From positions 62,001-126,000 of the forward strand of contig JAABSW010000005.1 in NCBI GenBank assembly GCA_011390155.1: DNA of 64,000 bases, written 5' to 3'. Position numbers and translations under genes: made by a program. This stretch comes from Clostridiaceae bacterium. GTDB taxonomy: Bacteria; Bacillota; Clostridia; Peptostreptococcales; Tindalliaceae. The first letter of the stretch is position 1. Each line of letters begins with the position of its first letter. The notes beneath the pieces were generated by a model that was not told the origin of the DNA, did no database searches, and saw only the letters and a program-made list of their open reading frames with translations. This document shows, piece after piece, positions 41,684 through 49,372 of this stretch.

Positions 41684-42754
41684 TTATCTTTGTGTGATTT
41701 CGTCAAAGAGTTCTGCACCATAATCGTCTTTGATTTCAGGCCAAACTTCTGCTCGAACCTTGTCAGCCATGGCTTGGTATTCTTCATCTGTGAATTCAAT
41801 GATCACTGCGCCATTTTCTTCCAGCAGATTTTCATAGTATTCTTCTTCATCAGGCGCAACTTCCCATCGGGCATCTTCAAAGTTCTTGGCAGCTGCTTCC
41901 ACCACTGCTTTTTCATCAGGGGATAAATCATTCCATACATCCATACTCATTTGGATCCACCAGATTTCAAACTGTGAATTTACTGGCAGGTAGTACTCAG
42001 TCACATCACGAAAACTGTTCCAGTAACCTTCACCACCAGATCCTATGGCTCCATCCACGATCCCTGTCTGGATTGACGTAAAAGCTTCGGAAAACGCAAT
42101 GGGGGTGGCCTGATATCCCAATGCTTGTGCGGTCAGCTCAAAGGATTTGATACCTGGAACCCTTATTTTGAGGCCCTTTGAAACATTGGGATCGCCAGGT
42201 GCCTCAGGTTCTTTTGTGGTAATAATGCTGCCAAAATACTTAGGATAACCCGCCAACATCTTTATATTTTCTTCGGCAAACATATCGGATATAGCGTTAT
42301 AAAGTTGGCCATCTCGGGCGAAAACAACCTTGGCTTCATCCCAGGTGCTGGCCAGGTAGGGTGCGCTCGGCAGTACGATAGCTTCATTCATATTGGGGGC
42401 TGCTGGTGCCAGTTGCATTTCTACGTCACCAATACCAATTCGCTCCTGAACAAGTGAATAATCGCCAAGCTGACTGTTAGGATACACTTCGAAGGTAAAA
42501 TTGCCGTCGGTGTTTTGTGTTATTTCGTCAATAAAAGCTTTCGTGTCTTCATCTGTAGAGGTTCCTTCAGGTCGTACATGGCCGATTTTAATGTTTCGTT
42601 CACTAAATCCGCCACCAGTGGCTGGTTCCTCAGCGTCACCGGAAGGTTCAGCTGGTGCAGGATCTTCTCCCCCGCCGCATCCAGTCAATACTGCTGTCAA
42701 CAAGAGAGCAAGAACCAATAACATCGATAGATTTCTTCTGGTCATTTTTTTCAT
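41684..42754 (-). CDS. dctP: TRAP transporter substrate-binding lipoprotein
   Basis: 356 residues; ATG at 42754 with AAGGAGG 7 nt upstream. Lipoprotein signal with lipobox LTGC (Cys26) and a low-complexity acidic linker, then a DctP-family solute receptor with the typical LKIRVPGIKSFELTAQALG (about 170-188, conserved carboxylate-binding arginine), and SIQTGIVDGAIGSG. Captures organic acids for sodium-driven uptake. Unusually it is the last gene, after dctQ and dctM. The linked opine-dehydrogenase-like gene suggests an amino-carboxylic or keto-acid ligand. Confidence 0.93.
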   Translation of the reverse strand: MKKMTRRNLSMLLVLALLLTAVLTGCGGGEDPAPAEPSGDAEEPATGGGFSERNIKIGHVRPEGTSTDEDTKAFIDEITQNTDGNFTFEVYPNSQLGDYSLVQERIGIGDVEMQLAPAAPNMNEAIVLPSAPYLASTWDEAKVVFARDGQLYNAISDMFAEENIKMLAGYPKYFGSIITTKEPEAPGDPNVSKGLKIRVPGIKSFELTAQALGYQATPIAFSEAFTSIQTGIVDGAIGSGGEGYWNSFRDVTEYYLPVNSQFEIWWIQMSMDVWNDLSPDEKAVVEAAAKNFEDARWEVAPDEEEYYENLLEENGAVIIEFTDEEYQAMADKVRAEVWPEIKDDYGAELFDEITQR

Positions 42755-42824
42755 TTTGAATCCTCCTTTGTTTTATTTCATGGTTTTATGTTTTATTTCA
42801 TTGATGTTTAGTCTAATTCCATAG

Positions 42825-44138
42825 CTATTTGACAAATCCCATCAAAGTGGGCAAGAACATGGAGAGGGGTGCCCAAAAGGTGGTAAGAAACACAACTGGC
42901 AGGTATCCCAACAGGAGAAAAATCATGGTTGGTTTCAGGATCTCGGAAAATTCGCACTTACCAATCCGCATACCCAAGTAGAGAATGCTGGCATAAGGAG
43001 GTGTCACACCACCCATGGCCAGGTTGACGCCCATAATTGCCGCAAAATGGATGGGACTGATTCCCAATTCTGTGACCAGTGGCAGTAAAAGCGGTGCGAT
43101 GAGAATCATTCCAGTCACATCATTTACAATCATCCCTACCAGGAACAGGAATATATTGATCACAATCAGAAGTAAAATTCTATTAGTTGAAATATTAAAA
43201 ACTATTTCAATAAGTGCCTGTGGTACCCGTAATAATACATAGGTCTGGCTCAGCATCAAGGTGAACATGATCATGGTCATGATGGCACCAATAGATACTG
43301 AAGATTCATTAACAACTTTTAGAAAGCTTCCAAATGTCATCTCACGGTAAATCCAAAACCCGATGGGCACCGACACAACAGCTGCCACCGCAGCGGCTTC
43401 AGAAGGGGTAAAGACCCCACCGTAGATACCGCCAAGAATGATCACAGGAAGTGAGAGACCCGGCAATGCCCGTATCGAACGCTGAATGTTCTGTTTTCTC
43501 ATTTCGATGGCAGGCAGTTTTTCTTCCAACACAATGTTGGGCATTCTTCGTACCCATATCATGTTAATCACCGAAAAAGAGATCACGATGGTCAGTCCTG
43601 GACCAACGGTGGAAAGAAAGGCTGCCAGTATGGATGTCTCCGTTACCCATCCATAAATTATCATAATAACACTGGGTGGAATCAGAAGTCCCAACACAGA
43701 AGACACTGTCACTAGGGCAGTTGCATATCCCCGTGGATAACCCTTCTCCACCATTCGCGGAATAAGGACCGGTCCTGTCGCTGCCACACCAGTGAAGCCA
43801 CTTCCTGAAATCGCACCGATAATGGCACAGGTGGTCACTGCCACCACGCCGATACCGCCTTTAATGCGGCCAACAAAGATATCGGCAAAGTTGAGAAGGT
43901 GTTTGGCCACACCACTATTTGCCATGATCATACCGGCCAAAATAAACAAGGGACTGGCCAGCAAAATAGGGCTGATCATCTGGGTGAATCCCCAGAGCAT
44001 CATGCTGCGCATGGAAGCGCCTCCGGCGATGGCCATGAAGGCAAGTGCTCCTCCGAAACAGTATGGCAGTGGAATGCTGAACATCAAGAGTAAGACCAAC
44101 AGAATGACATCAATAAGTACGATGGTGAGCATATCCAT
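42825..44138 (-). CDS. dctM: TRAP transporter large permease
   Basis: 437 residues with about 12 helices; ATG at 44138 overlaps the dctQ TAA by one base and has AGGAGG 7 nt upstream. DctM landmarks: PLFILAGMIMANSG (about 60-73), GAISGSGFTGVAATGPVLIP, PPSVIMIIYGW (about 152-162), and GGVTPPYASILYLG in the second half. Forms the sodium-coupled translocation unit with DctQ. Confidence 0.95.
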   Translation of the reverse strand: MDMLTIVLIDVILLVLLLMFSIPLPYCFGGALAFMAIAGGASMRSMMLWGFTQMISPILLASPLFILAGMIMANSGVAKHLLNFADIFVGRIKGGIGVVAVTTCAIIGAISGSGFTGVAATGPVLIPRMVEKGYPRGYATALVTVSSVLGLLIPPSVIMIIYGWVTETSILAAFLSTVGPGLTIVISFSVINMIWVRRMPNIVLEEKLPAIEMRKQNIQRSIRALPGLSLPVIILGGIYGGVFTPSEAAAVAAVVSVPIGFWIYREMTFGSFLKVVNESSVSIGAIMTMIMFTLMLSQTYVLLRVPQALIEIVFNISTNRILLLIVINIFLFLVGMIVNDVTGMILIAPLLLPLVTELGISPIHFAAIMGVNLAMGGVTPPYASILYLGMRIGKCEFSEILKPTMIFLLLGYLPVVFLTTFWAPLSMFLPTLMGFVK

Positions 44139-44665
44139 TACAGCACCTCCTGTTTAGGTTCTTTAAATGTGTCAAAAGATTTTCTATACACTTCCACCAG
44201 TTCAATAAGCGTGTAAAACGTCATCAATACCAATCCGATAAAAACCATCATTTCTGCGAAAAACATGGGGTAACGCAGCAATGGACTTAGTTTCCAGGAA
44301 CGAAGTGAATACGTAAAGTACCAGTAAGCCCAGTATGTCAACCAGCAGCTGACCACAAAAGAAATGGTGATTCTGATGATGTTGAAAAGTGCTCTGCTGC
44401 GACCACGCTTAATGTAGAGAGTCAGAATACCACACTCAATATGGGCGCGGGTGCGTGACGCGTTGGCCCCTCCGATCATGTACAGCCAGATGATGGGAAA
44501 CAACATTAATTCCTCAATTCCCATTAACGGCATCTGGAACACATAACGGAGCAGAACCTGAACGAATACCAGTACCGGAAGTGCGATGGCCAGTAACATG
44601 GTGATAATCTCCTGCGTTTTTGCCAGAAATGACAAGGCCCTTTTCCAGGGTGAACCGCCTTTCAT
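44138..44665 (-). CDS. dctQ: TRAP transporter small permease
   Basis: 175 residues from the ATG at 44665 (GGAGG 7 nt upstream); the frame extends to 44698 without a site. Four membrane helices and the DctQ pattern VLLRYVFQMPLMGIEELMLFPIIW near 40-63 (here in parts: VLLRYVF, IEELMLF). Partner of DctM and first gene of the QMP operon. The upstream region holds a putative GntR operator. Confidence 0.92.
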   Translation of the reverse strand: MKGGSPWKRALSFLAKTQEIITMLLAIALPVLVFVQVLLRYVFQMPLMGIEELMLFPIIWLYMIGGANASRTRAHIECGILTLYIKRGRSRALFNIIRITISFVVSCWLTYWAYWYFTYSLRSWKLSPLLRYPMFFAEMMVFIGLVLMTFYTLIELVEVYRKSFDTFKEPKQEVL

Positions 44666-44753
44666 ATTTCCACCTCCATCAATAATAGGTACTCTCATAA
44701 TTTTCGATAGGTAAAGATTTCCTAGGACAAGCCTGTTTAATTTTATTACTGTC

Positions 44754-44778
44754 CAGCTGTACTACAACCATACTACCA
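44754..44778. promoter_or_regulatory. Putative GntR operator upstream of dctQMP
   Basis: The 25-base element starts CAGCTGT and holds core TGTACTACA (44758-44766), fitting the FCD-GntR half-site pattern GT-N3-AC. Twenty-one of 25 bases match the element at 46973-46997 upstream of the opine-dehydrogenase-like gene. Confidence 0.7.
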
Positions 44779-44830
44779 TACTTTTAACTGAATTGCACGT
44801 TTTTTTTGATGAATTCCAAAAAAACAAAAA

Positions 44831-44882
44831 ACGGCCAGTTTGAATCTTTCAACCAGTGATTCTGACCGTGAAATCACTGGTT
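44831..44882 (-). terminator. Overlapping alternative hairpins after the GntR gene
   Basis: Hairpin A: AACCAGTGATT/AATCACTGGTT (11 bp, 44851-44882). Hairpin B: ACGGTCAG/CTGGCCGT (44831-44869, one G-U) followed by TTTTTTGTTTTT on the minus strand. They share bases, so only one can form. Simplest reading is the gntR terminator. Confidence 0.7.
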
Positions 44883-44946
44883 TGTGACTGATGCCTGTGA
44901 AAAACATTGATATGCCTTTCTCAATAATCCGGAATCAGCTCCGTGA

Positions 44947-45663
44947 TTACATGTCGCTTTCAATTTTGTCACTTTCCTTGATCAGGTTCAGTGAATTTTC
45001 AATATGACGCTGCATTAAATTCTTCGCCAGCACTGCATCCTTGCGGCGAATGCACTCCAGCATTGTCATATGTTCGTCCAGCTCGGAATTAACAATATAC
45101 TCGCTCAAATGCTGAAAAAAAACAGTACCCCGTGTGACAATCAGGCTGCCGGTGATGCTGTCCAGCAAATTGATCAAAATTCGGTTACGGGACATGGCAA
45201 AGATTTTTTTATGGAATTCAAACCCCATATCAAAGGTGTAATTTTTATCGATCAGTGCCTGTTTACCTTTACGAATGATACTTTCCAACTCTACCATGTC
45301 TTCTTCCGTAGCATACTTCACAGCCAGATAAGTTAATCCCGGCTCAACAATGAGCCGTGTTTCCATCAATTCCACCAGAGTGCTTTCTTCATCAATCAGG
45401 TTAGATAACAGCATACTGTTGATATTTAAAAGCGCCTGATCGGATACAAAAGTACCGATGCCTGTTCGCGACTCCAGTATTCCAACTAACTCCAGCGCTT
45501 TTATGGATTCACGGATAGAGTTGCGACTTACCTGAAACTGCCGGGAAAGCTCCAGTTCACCCATAATTCTCTCACCGGGCTTCCATTGTCCACTGCTGAT
45601 CATCTCAATAATCTGCCTGGATACTTCTTCGTACAAATTTTGTTTTTTAGCCGGCGTAATCAT
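44947..45663 (-). CDS. FCD-type GntR transcriptional regulator
   Basis: 238 residues from the ATG at 45663 (GAGGTGG 7 nt upstream). Winged helix at the N-terminus: ISSGQWKPGERIMGELELS, QVSRNSIRESIKALELVGIL (in parts; about 18-62). The C-terminal all-helical FCD domain (about 85-225) has the metal/ligand histidines, for example in FEFHKKIF and QRHIENS. Members bind organic acids. Placed between the TRAP operon and the dehydrogenase, both with matching operator-like motifs, and with a related motif in its own promoter. Confidence 0.92.
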   Translation of the reverse strand: MITPAKKQNLYEEVSRQIIEMISSGQWKPGERIMGELELSRQFQVSRNSIRESIKALELVGILESRTGIGTFVSDQALLNINSMLLSNLIDEESTLVELMETRLIVEPGLTYLAVKYATEEDMVELESIIRKGKQALIDKNYTFDMGFEFHKKIFAMSRNRILINLLDSITGSLIVTRGTVFFQHLSEYIVNSELDEHMTMLECIRRKDAVLAKNLMQRHIENSLNLIKESDKIESDM

Positions 45664-45700
45664 GCACCCACCACCTCTCATTAACTGATTAGATGTCTAA

Positions 45701-45720
45701 TTGTACCACATTTATACAAG
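45701..45720. promoter_or_regulatory. Putative GntR auto-operator
   Basis: Core TGTACCACA (45702-45710) within a TTGTA...TACAA inverted repeat spanning 45701-45719, 38 bp upstream of the gntR start. Shares the TGTnCyACA core with the TRAP and dehydrogenase elements. Confidence 0.6.
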
Positions 45721-45813
45721 TTTGTGAATAAAAAGATAATCTGGTGGACAACAGCTTATCTTTTAGACTCTCGATGATGGCAATGCGCCGGCATTTTCAT
45801 CCGTCCATTTCTA

Positions 45814-46929
45814 TCAATCTTTCTGTCGCCATTTCCCTGTTTCCGCATAGGCAACTATTTCATCTGCCGTTAACCCTTCAAATCCGAGTTTTTTCATGGT
45901 GCGGCCTCCACTGATCAAATCTTGGTCCAACACGAAACTACCCATTTTACAAATGCTTTCCATCATTTCATAAGGTGATCCCAACTGCTTTGCAAGTGAG
46001 ACAAAGGGTACCAGACTCATTGGGACATCTTCCAACACATACCTGGTGTCAACACGCTTTTGCCCCATCACTTCTTCATAAGCCATGGTCTGCTTCACGG
46101 CATCCGTCAGATTCTCTGCTTTTGCATCGTATAAGATTTCGTACATTTTCAATACTGGTTGCACTTCGAGACCCAGTAAAGCCCCCAGCGCAATTCTCTC
46201 CTTGTCCATGTTTACAATAAACCGGCCGATACTGGGGGTTATTCCATCCCAGTAATAGCGCCAATCATAGGGAGATTCAATCATCGATACATTTAAAATC
46301 GTGGGGCCCGGGTGCATCACAGCATTCAGATTTCCCAAACTGGTATCCAATACGTTTTTACCTGCGATCATGCCCGGGAAGGCTTCCTGAAGTTTTTCAA
46401 CTACTTCTGCTGTCTTGTTGGCAGGGATTGCCGCCACCATTAAATTGTTTTTCACGCCCTTAATGGAGGCATACCCTGGTTTATTGAGTCGGCATGCATA
46501 GAGTAGAGATTGGGCTTCCGCAACCACAACCTTTTCAGCATATCCTTCTTCCCGGAATACTTGTTTGAATTCAAAGGCACCAAAAGTAGCACCTGGATGA
46601 ATGAAGACAATCTGGTCTTCTTTGAGATGTGGTGCCAAATTTTTAGCCACACTGCGATGATAAAGAGCCGGCAAAATCACCATGATGATTTCAGCGTTTT
46701 CAATGGCTTTTGAAATATCGGTAGTAGCCAGCTCCACTTTTCCAAAGCCTTTCACCGCACCGTCCACATGAATACCCCCCTGGTGGTTAATGGCATCCAC
46801 AGTTTCCTGCATCACATCATAAAGAGTGACCGGAAATCCCATTATTCCAAGATGTCCGGCAGCGGACTGACCACCATTTCCTCCGCCTATAACTGCCCAT
46901 CGTCGCTTGTTTGCTACTTCATCAATCAT
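45814..46929 (-). CDS. NAD/NADP octopine/opine dehydrogenase-family protein
   Basis: 371 residues; ATG at 46929 with GGAGGG 6 nt upstream. N-terminal Rossmann fold (WAVIGGGNGGQSAAGHLG, residues 11-28) and the opine-dehydrogenase C-terminal domain beginning near NLNAVMHPGPTILNV (about 199-213), containing the catalytic-type histidine. The family interconverts amino acid plus 2-oxo acid with N-(carboxyalkyl)amino acids using NAD(P)H. Next to a TRAP importer and GntR regulator, a catabolic role on an imported opine-like compound is plausible but unproven. Confidence 0.88.
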   Translation of the reverse strand: MIDEVANKRRWAVIGGGNGGQSAAGHLGIMGFPVTLYDVMQETVDAINHQGGIHVDGAVKGFGKVELATTDISKAIENAEIIMVILPALYHRSVAKNLAPHLKEDQIVFIHPGATFGAFEFKQVFREEGYAEKVVVAEAQSLLYACRLNKPGYASIKGVKNNLMVAAIPANKTAEVVEKLQEAFPGMIAGKNVLDTSLGNLNAVMHPGPTILNVSMIESPYDWRYYWDGITPSIGRFIVNMDKERIALGALLGLEVQPVLKMYEILYDAKAENLTDAVKQTMAYEEVMGQKRVDTRYVLEDVPMSLVPFVSLAKQLGSPYEMMESICKMGSFVLDQDLISGGRTMKKLGFEGLTADEIVAYAETGKWRQKD

Positions 46930-46972
46930 GTTATACCCTCCTTAATATAATTTGTTCATATATTCTAATGTA

Positions 46973-46997
46973 CAGCTGTCCTACAATCATAATACAA
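46973..46997. promoter_or_regulatory. Putative GntR operator upstream of the opine-dehydrogenase-like gene
   Basis: Element with core TGTCCTACA (46977-46985) flanked by CAGC and ATCATAATACAA, aligned base for base with 44754-44778. It lies 44-68 bp before the ATG and would overlap a plausible -35 region. Confidence 0.7.
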
Positions 46998-47094
46998 CGA
47001 CTTTTCTGATAAATCAATGTTTATTTGAAAACCAATCTAGATTAACCTCATAAAAATCTCACTTTCCTTGAAAACAGAACTATAAAAAGAAAAA

Positions 47095-47158: not shown

Positions 47159-47911
47159 TTAAAACTGAAATTTCATCGAAATTTCTTCTGTTACTGCCTT
47201 AACCATCGCCACAATTCGTTCCCTATCGCCCAGCCGGAAGGTGGGAACCGAGACACTCACGGCGGCAATGCAGTTGCCCAGGTGATCAAAAATGGGGGCA
47301 CCGATACAAGTTAGCCCTTCTTCCACTTCTTCCTTGTCAGTGGCATAACCCTGTTTTCGTATTACTTCCAAGGTTTGTAGCACAACTGATTTATCTGTAA
47401 TAGTGTTTTTTGTGTAAGCATGCAAGGACCCCTGAAAACTGACAAACTGGTCAAAGCATCCGTTGTTATTAAATGCCAGCAAACATTTACCTACAGAAGT
47501 GGCATGAAGGTGGCCTTTATCCCCCACATGTGGTACCGCCGAAAACTGTCGGTCCGAATCTGCCTTTAACACGGTCACAGAAAACAACCCCTGGGCAACG
47601 GATACATTCACACTTTCATTCAGCGTCTGTGATAATTTCTTGATTGGTGCCTGGGCTTGCTTTTTCAACAGGCTCACAATCTTTGTCCTGCTACCGATCA
47701 GATAGGTTTTGATGGTCAGGAAATATTTCTTCGACTCATGGTCACGGTATAAATACCCTGCTTCTTCGAGGGTCATCACCAGTCTGTGGGTGGTACTTGT
47801 GGGATACCCAAGCTCCTTGCTAATTTCAGTTAAACTCCAACCCGGTTCCTCTGCAAAAAGTTCCAATACCTGCAGGGCTTTCAAAACAGATTGTATACTG
47901 CCGTCGCTCAT
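47159..47911 (-). CDS. IclR-family transcriptional regulator
   Basis: 250 residues; ATG at 47911 with GAGGTG upstream. N-terminal winged helix (SVLKALQVLELF, ELGYPTSTTHRLVMTLEEAGYL in parts, about 6-52) and C-terminal IclR effector domain with HVGDKGHLHATSVGKCLLA (about 123-141) and GLTCIGAPIFDHLGNCIAAVS (about 195-215, in parts). It follows tnaA by 81 nt but with a terminator in between, so it is probably expressed at a lower level by read-through or from its own promoter. A role in controlling tnaA is inferred. Confidence 0.9.
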   Translation of the reverse strand: MSDGSIQSVLKALQVLELFAEEPGWSLTEISKELGYPTSTTHRLVMTLEEAGYLYRDHESKKYFLTIKTYLIGSRTKIVSLLKKQAQAPIKKLSQTLNESVNVSVAQGLFSVTVLKADSDRQFSAVPHVGDKGHLHATSVGKCLLAFNNNGCFDQFVSFQGSLHAYTKNTITDKSVVLQTLEVIRKQGYATDKEEVEEGLTCIGAPIFDHLGNCIAAVSVSVPTFRLGDRERIVAMVKAVTEEISMKFQF

Positions 47912-47933
47912 GCCAACACCTCATTTCAAAAAG

Positions 47934-47958
47934 TCCCCCTCCCAGATCGGGAGAGGGA
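47934..47958 (-). terminator. Terminator between tnaA and the iclR gene
   Basis: TCCCTCTCCC pairs with GGGAGGGGGA on the minus strand (10 bp with one G-U, 5-nt loop) followed by CTTTTTG, 23 nt before the iclR start. Confidence 0.82.
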
Positions 47959-47992
47959 TTATGATTCAGATTGTTACAAATTTGCGCCCATT

Positions 47993-49372
47993 TTACTCCA
48001 AAGGCTTTAATTTTGCTGTAAAGTGACGCAAAATAGCAGGTTCCCAGGTTACCTTATACCCTTTTAAACCGGATGCACGCTCTTTAATAGCTTTCAGTGC
48101 CTCCACAATCACGTCCAGGTGAGACTGGGTATACACCCGGCGAGGCACTGCCAGTCGTGTGAACTCGAATTCTGACTCAATCTGCTCTCCTGTGTCAGGG
48201 TTATTGCCCATCATGTAGGAACCGATGTCGCAGGAACGTATGCCCGCTTCAATATAAAGCTCCAGGGCCAGGGTTTGGGCTGGGAACTCGTAATAAGGAA
48301 CATGGGGTAACATCTTCTTGGCGTCAATGAACAGAGCGTGGCCTCCTGCTGGAGACTGGAAAGCAATACCAGCTTCTTCCAGTTTCGCTGCCAGGTATTC
48401 AATCTGACCAACACGGTATTGAAGGTAATCAAAATCTGTTCCTTCCTGCAGCCCTATTCCCATGGCCTCAATGTCTCTGCCCGCTAATCCGCCATAGGAG
48501 ATAAAACCTTCCAGCGGAATTGTTCTGGCTTTAACCGTTTCAAAAAGATCTGCGTCGTTCTTCACGCCAATCAGGCCACCCATGTTGATGATGGCGTCTT
48601 TTTTAGCACTCATGGTAAACATGTCGGCATAACTGAACATTTCACTGGCAATTTCTTTGATGGATTTATCTTCATATCCCGCTTCACGCTTCTTAATGAA
48701 ATAAGCATTTTCAGCGTAACGCGCTGCGTCAATGCACACTGGAATATTGTATGATTTGGCAATTTCCCGGGTTTTTTTGATGTTTTCCATGGAAACTGGC
48801 TGACCGCCGGCACTGTTGTTGGTGACAGTGATGATGATCAATCCAACATTTTTAGGGCCATGTTCTTCGATAAGCTTTACCAGGCGTTCGTTATCCATGT
48901 TGCCCTTGAATGGATGGTAATTGACAGTGTCCAGCGCTTCCCGTATCACACAATCAACAGCCCTTGCACCCGCCAGCTCCACATGAGCACGGGTGGTATC
49001 AAAATGCATGTTGGAAATGGCTACTTTGCCTTTCTCAAGAAAAATGGGCATTACCACTTTTTCAGCAGCACGGCCTTGGTGCACTGGTTGGAAATACTCA
49101 TAACCAAAGATATCTTTTGCAGATTCAATCAGGTTTCTAAAACTACGCGAACCTGAATATGCCTCGTCGCCCACCATGATACCAGCCCATTGTTTGTCAC
49201 TCATGGCGCCGGTGCCGCTGTCTGTGAGTAAATCGATGTACACGTCATCAGATTTAAGGCCAAACACGTTGTAATTGGCTTCTTTTATCTTTTCAATCCG
49301 CTCTTCCCTCGTCAACATTTTAATAGGTTCCACCATTTTGATTTTAAAAGGTTCTGCGTAATACTTTGTCAT
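47993..49372 (-). CDS. tnaA: Tryptophanase
   Basis: 459 residues; ATG at 49372 with AGGAGG 7 nt upstream. PLP-dependent cleavage of L-tryptophan to indole, pyruvate and ammonia. Seen: [13 protein letters not shown] (46-58), [11 protein letters not shown] (68-78), HQGRAAE (98-104), [11 protein letters not shown] (184-194), the PLP lysine in SAKKDA (K258) and C-terminal LRHFTAKLK. At the position where tyrosine phenol-lyase has an arginine in GVRSMERG, this protein reads GIRSCDIG, matching tryptophanases. Promoter at 49522-49550 with a 140-nt leader. Confidence 0.94.

Follow-up and report, generated by a model that had tools for sequence, protein, structure and literature searches.

The closest described systems are regulators of the GntR/FadR family and one bacterial dehydrogenase. 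DgoR of E. coli is a GntR/FadR repressor of the D-galactonate operon, and its operators IR1 and IR2 overlap the promoter (PMC12288454). Dyads of the FadR subfamily follow the consensus GTM-N0-1-KAC, with an additional half-site 7–12 nt from the centre (PMC4494728). NanR, a GntR protein with an FCD domain that controls the sialic acid regulon of E. coli, recognises GGTATA direct repeats, three NanR dimers assembling on (GGTATA)3 (PMC8012715). On the enzyme side, the comparison is with Arthrobacter N-(1-D-carboxyethyl)-L-norvaline dehydrogenase (PDB entry 1bg6), and the catalytic role of the His/Asp dyad of opine dehydrogenases has been described (PMC10787698).

The window, by which we mean the whole 64-kb stretch of DNA that was analysed, carries five genes on the minus strand that bring such components together. 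These are odh (45814–46929; Pfam Octopine_DH, 1.7e-37), which encodes an opine-dehydrogenase-like protein of the CENDH/ArODH type; gntR (44947–45681; GntR 3.9e-15, FCD 1.7e-19), encoding a GntR-FCD regulator; and the genes of a TRAP transporter, namely dctQ for the small permease (44138–44698; DctQ, 1.6e-19), dctM for the large permease (42825–44138; DctM, 3.3e-74) and dctP for the solute-binding protein (41684–42754; DctP, 1.5e-39). Two of the starts may need to be moved. For gntR, position 45663 is probably the start rather than 45681, given that the conserved MITPAKK of the orthologue alignment begins there and a ribosome-binding site precedes it, while dctQ possibly begins at 44665 (MKGGSP), where its orthologue in the congeneric genome G001 begins. 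Our conclusion from the analysis is that three elements upstream of gntR, odh and dctQMP are very likely the operators of the adjacent GntR-FCD protein, which would make these genes a three-promoter regulon.

By its domains, the regulator is a member of the GntR family, FadR/FCD subfamily: an N-terminal GntR winged helix (PF00392), whose first residue is residue 16 of the long open reading frame, and a C-terminal FCD domain (PF07729) both score above the gathering threshold. A metal-ligand set of the form D-x3-H...H...H is found in many FCD domains but not all, and does not strictly define them; nor is metal binding universal among FCD proteins. In the regulator the set is incomplete: the three His are kept, but at the position of the Asp in DVEFH (6az6) and DVDFH (NanR) it has Gly, as have nearly all orthologues. 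Since not every FCD protein binds metal, the missing Asp is no bar to membership. The nearest named NCBIfam models are NanR, LldR and PdhR, all far under their cut-offs. NanR is the best of them (112 bits against a cut-off of 260) and is also among the top PDB matches (6on4, E 6e-16), yet NanR has GGTATA direct repeats and an N-terminal extension, whereas here the site has a dyad core, the regulator lacks the extension and no GGTATA repeats occur at the cluster promoters. Identification of the regulator as NanR was rejected on the score, the extension and the repeats.

ODH has a Rossmann domain and an Octopine_DH domain (PF02317), and it resembles the Arthrobacter enzyme in sequence over the full length (E 2.2e-76), with the catalytic pair H202/D297 kept as H206/D301. 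It differs from that enzyme in that its gene is linked to those of an importer and a regulator, an arrangement that suggests the oxidative direction.

The sequence-only reading had reported two 25-bp elements, one upstream of dctQMP and one upstream of odh, and a shorter relative at gntR. All three are there. CAGCTGTACTACAACCATACTACCA (44754–44778) and CAGCTGTCCTACAATCATAATACAA (46973–46997) are identical at 21 of 25 positions, a likeness beyond that of shuffled dctQ and odh intergenic regions, in which the best ungapped 25-bp match never exceeded 19 (60 trials, first-order Markov); TTGTACCACATTTATACAA lies at 45701–45719. What did not stand is the extent of the element. An operator core does lie inside it, but ATACTA (44770–44775) and ATAATA (46989–46994) are the reversed -10 hexamers of leftward promoters, and an accessory half-site had been overlooked: with 4 bp more on the left, the pair has 24 identities in 29 and gains a conserved TGT, found at 44750–44752 (dctQ), 46969–46971 (odh) and 45694–45696 (gntR). 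On the window strand, this TGT is the accessory half-site of the family-wide logo. Judged by these positions, the 25-bp element is an operator plus a -10 hexamer, not an operator alone. A palindrome centred on CAGCTG, seen in the window pair, was dropped because it is lost in most other genera while TGTAGKACA is kept.

Read in the direction of the genes, the site is TTGTAG(G/T)ACA-nnTnn-ACA, that is, an 11-bp GT-N3-AC dyad with an additional ACA half-site. The cores thus fit the dyad of FCD-type GntR proteins, as had been claimed, and the regulator carries both domains. The dctQMP operator TTGTAGTACAGCTGGACA (44750–44767, minus strand) comprises the dyad at 44757–44767 and the accessory ACA at 44750–44752, and is conserved at dctQ in L072, L073, L074 and L134. 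The -10 hexamer of the dctQ promoter, TAGTAT (44770–44775, minus strand), is 2 bp upstream of this operator, and the -35 is weak (GTGCAA). At odh, the operator TTGTAGGACAGCTGTACA (46969–46986, minus strand; dyad 46976–46986, accessory ACA 46969–46971) is conserved in the majority of clusters that include a GntR orthologue. It begins 2 bp past the -10 of the promoter TTGATT-17-TATTAT (46989–47017, minus strand), over the expected start point, as it does in L072 and L073. The gntR operator ATGTGGTACAATTAGACA (45694–45711, minus strand), whose register is conserved across relatives, includes TGGTACAAT, a possible extended -10; the best promoter match there is TTCACA-17-TACAAT with TG preceding the -10, so that the operator overlaps the -10. 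TGTGGTACA, the form at gntR, recurs in L072, L073, L134 and L137, and our guess is that the overlap explains why it stands there while TGTAGGACA stands at odh in several genera. It is important to note that sigma-70-type promoter matches are no commoner in the region than in shuffles, and their weight comes from their fixed position beside the operator in relatives.

Resemblance between promoters of the same sigma factor, or a recent promoter duplication, could in principle produce such elements with no regulator involved, and the -10 hexamer does form part of the 25 bp. We consider this explanation extremely unlikely. In the family logo, which aligns the window sites with those of relatives (32 in all), the TGTAGKACA core and the accessory ACA carry the most information; the -10, a TAGTAT-like stretch at -9 to -4 from TGT, carries less. 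The core also outlasts flanks that have diverged in other genera, and the site is found in reversed orientation at dctQ in L079 and at odh in L083.

The same logo bears on how the regulator would sit on its sites. It shows a core TGTAG(G/T)ACA followed by a preference for A or G. A further ACA, at +14 to +16 counted from the first T of the core, is present in 24–30 of the 32 sites at each position, and a similar but weaker tendency is seen at +22 to +24. Such 8-bp spacing might reflect several dimers cooperating in a NanR-like array instead of a single dimer per dyad. Some promoters do repeat ACA every 8 bp (for example GGACAgttGAACAacaGAACAgcaGAACA at dctQ in L134), and NanR, with its three dimers on one repeat array, is the nearest model. 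The third repeat, however, is weak and absent from most sites; cooperativity in NanR requires a 32-residue N-terminal extension (PMC8012715) that the regulator here is without; and single extra half-sites 7–12 nt from GntR-family dyads are common (PMC4494728). We regard this variant of the operator reading as unlikely overall, and where ACA is repeated three or four times in a promoter a NanR-type array is possible though not favoured. Runs of 8-bp-spaced NNACA repeats, up to four in succession, are seen downstream of the operator in the dctQ leader of Acidaminobacter hydrogenoformans (L134, 9459–9495), and in L073 and L074.

A single dimer on each dyad, our preferred reading, agrees with the described FadR-subfamily sites. 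These share the consensus, the half-site here lies 10–12 nt from the dyad centre, and the difference is in sequence detail only. The likeness to DgoR is by family and by core sequence: its IR1 has TTGTAGTACAA, which is the dctQ core TTGTAGTACA plus one base (PMC12288454), and both systems combine a GntR/FadR-family regulator, catabolic genes and an operator overlapping the promoter. They differ in their target genes and expected inducer, and in that the accessory half-site here is one-sided, whereas DgoR has two inverted repeats. DgoR is a direct precedent for the proposed repression.

How specific the motif is depends on the form in which it is searched. TGTNCTACA alone gives 5 matches in the window against 1.5 expected and was set aside as weak evidence, being too short, and TTGTNNNACANCTGNACA with three mismatches allowed occurs at background level. 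A matrix built from other genera only, by contrast with these short patterns, ranks the window sites first (odh), second (gntR) and third (dctQ) in the 64 kb, with scores of 23.9, 21.6 and 20.9; in 100 simulated windows the mean maximum was 13.8, and two reached the third-site score of 20.9. Genome-wide scans were pattern searches of G000 (2.7 Mb). The strict motif TGTRGKACANNTNNACA has four exact matches there, at the three promoters and in one coding frame resembling cysteine synthase, while TTGTAGKACA has six, two at this cluster and four inside genes. The search proposed in the sequence-only reading, with TGTnCyACA-N3-ATA, returned eight exact matches: the three promoters, four within genes and one outside called open reading frames. 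In the genome, then, the motif is not frequent in unrelated intergenic regions. Sites at the promoters of regulator, transporter and enzyme that are rare elsewhere in the genome are the pattern of an autoregulated catabolic regulon. A match with one mismatch (G000 C1:93477), lying upstream of a gene for a sigma-54-type activator, was excluded, support being lacking.

The cluster odh-gntR-dctQMP is conserved across several genera and families. It is found in G001 (same genus), in G005 (same family), in A. hydrogenoformans DSM 2784 (L070/L134) and in G148; in G016, G057 and G028 its genes are rearranged or lie on separate contigs. Its distribution is patchy: of the 394 genomes of the order, just 13 contain a GntR match at E ≤ 1e-40. 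The core was defined from the window first and the relatives were scanned after; free of that choice is the count of 9-mers, in which TGTAGGACA is the most frequent in the promoters of odh, gntR and dctQ homologues outside the genus (18 of 48 regions; shuffles at most 12). TGT(A/G)G(G/T)ACA occurs in 23 of these 48 regions and in 9 of 723 control windows of the same size from the same loci (Fisher 9e-24), counts in which the related sequences are not fully independent. TTGTAGKACA is present at every orthologous promoter that has a site, and fits the dyad NyGTM-N0-1-KACNy. Of 15 gntR regions outside the genus, 11 gave no match to the strict core, some of them having degenerate sites; the core is also missing from odh/GntR pairs that are more distant (L140, for example) and at odh in L142–L144.

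Whose operators these are is addressed by the same comparison. The sites might belong to another regulator, such as the adjacent IclR-type protein (47159–47911), with GntR acting elsewhere, and the IclR gene is directly upstream of odh in both the window and G001. We judge this very improbable. No IclR homologue was found in the other cluster loci compared, yet the motif is still there, and TTGTAG-K-ACAA is a dyad of the GntR/FadR type with a core as in the DgoR operator. Furthermore, over 98 relatives the motif follows the GntR orthologue: 7 of the 8 genomes with an orthologue carry the operator TGTAGKACARNTNNACA, in every case at odh or dctQ, and of the 90 that lack one 2 carry it, both inside genes (Fisher 2e-8; p-values here are indicative, since some of these genomes had served to refine the consensus). 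The recurrence of the motif at these genes in other genera, and its co-occurrence with the GntR orthologue, strongly support the GntR regulon first proposed for the TRAP transporter, odh and gntR itself. The promoters of the IclR and tryptophanase genes have no site, and these genes were therefore kept out of the regulon. The tryptophanase / tyrosine phenol-lyase family gene and the IclR-type regulator gene stand side by side at 47159–49372, without an operator, and of the clusters examined only those of this genus have the pair next to them.

In the mechanism that we propose, a GntR dimer would bind the 11-bp dyad TTGTAG(G/T)ACAA, and the ACA half-site 8 bp further on would make that binding stronger. 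The dyad starts 2 bp past the -10 at odh and dctQ and covers the expected start point, and at gntR it overlaps the -10 itself; in these positions the bound protein is expected to block RNA polymerase, giving repression and, at gntR, autorepression. All three promoters would be repressed until an opine-like inducer is imported, this being either the compound taken up by the TRAP transporter or its oxidation product. The likeliest class of compound is that of the N-(1-carboxyalkyl) amino acids (opines), whose oxidation by ODH would yield an amino acid, a keto acid and NADH. The binding, sign of regulation and ligand we infer from the family, and the whole is very probably a small self-regulated circuit for uptake and breakdown of an opine-like compound. 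The regulatory logic is ordinary, that of one more FCD-GntR regulon.

The importer itself is exchangeable. In L138 (G241) a sodium:solute symporter gene takes the place of the TRAP genes, and symporter, odh and gntR each have an upstream site. In L081 and L136 odh is likewise paired with a symporter, with a site at odh in the former and a degenerate site (TGTAGGATAGCTGAACA) in the latter. Retention of the predicted switch while the importer is swapped is what a substrate-specific regulon predicts. An enolase-superfamily (MR/MLE) enzyme is encoded beside the odh homologue in L136 (5430–6551), L140 (1346–2470) and L075 (4397–5209), and these enzymes are possibly epimerases for opine-like compounds.

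A broader reading, which we offer tentatively and hold at a little under even confidence, is that these clusters form an undescribed opine-fermentation regulon of anaerobic Clostridia, in which one GntR-FCD regulator and a stable operator would preside over opine dehydrogenases and over importers that can replace each other (TRAP or sodium symporter, with an enolase-superfamily enzyme in some clusters), and 8-bp-spaced half-sites would tune cooperative repression. Our literature search, whose coverage left out most subscription journals, returned nothing on an opine dehydrogenase with a TRAP transporter or with Acidaminobacter. A shared switch gives some bacterial opine dehydrogenases a testable role, and the tie between enzyme and importer points to uptake and oxidation of opines rather than synthesis in these anaerobes. 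The motif is specific enough for finding more members of the regulon in other genomes.

Two further observations concern individual genomes. G028 (L075, L077, L078), a genome of 1.9 Mb, contains five or more closely related opine-dehydrogenase paralogues, and the operator core lies upstream of most of them. Between the window and G001 (L072), the TRAP proteins (41684–44698) are 98–99% identical, while ODH, GntR and IclR are 88–91% identical, an excess that suggests that the TRAP genes either were exchanged recently or are under strong constraint.
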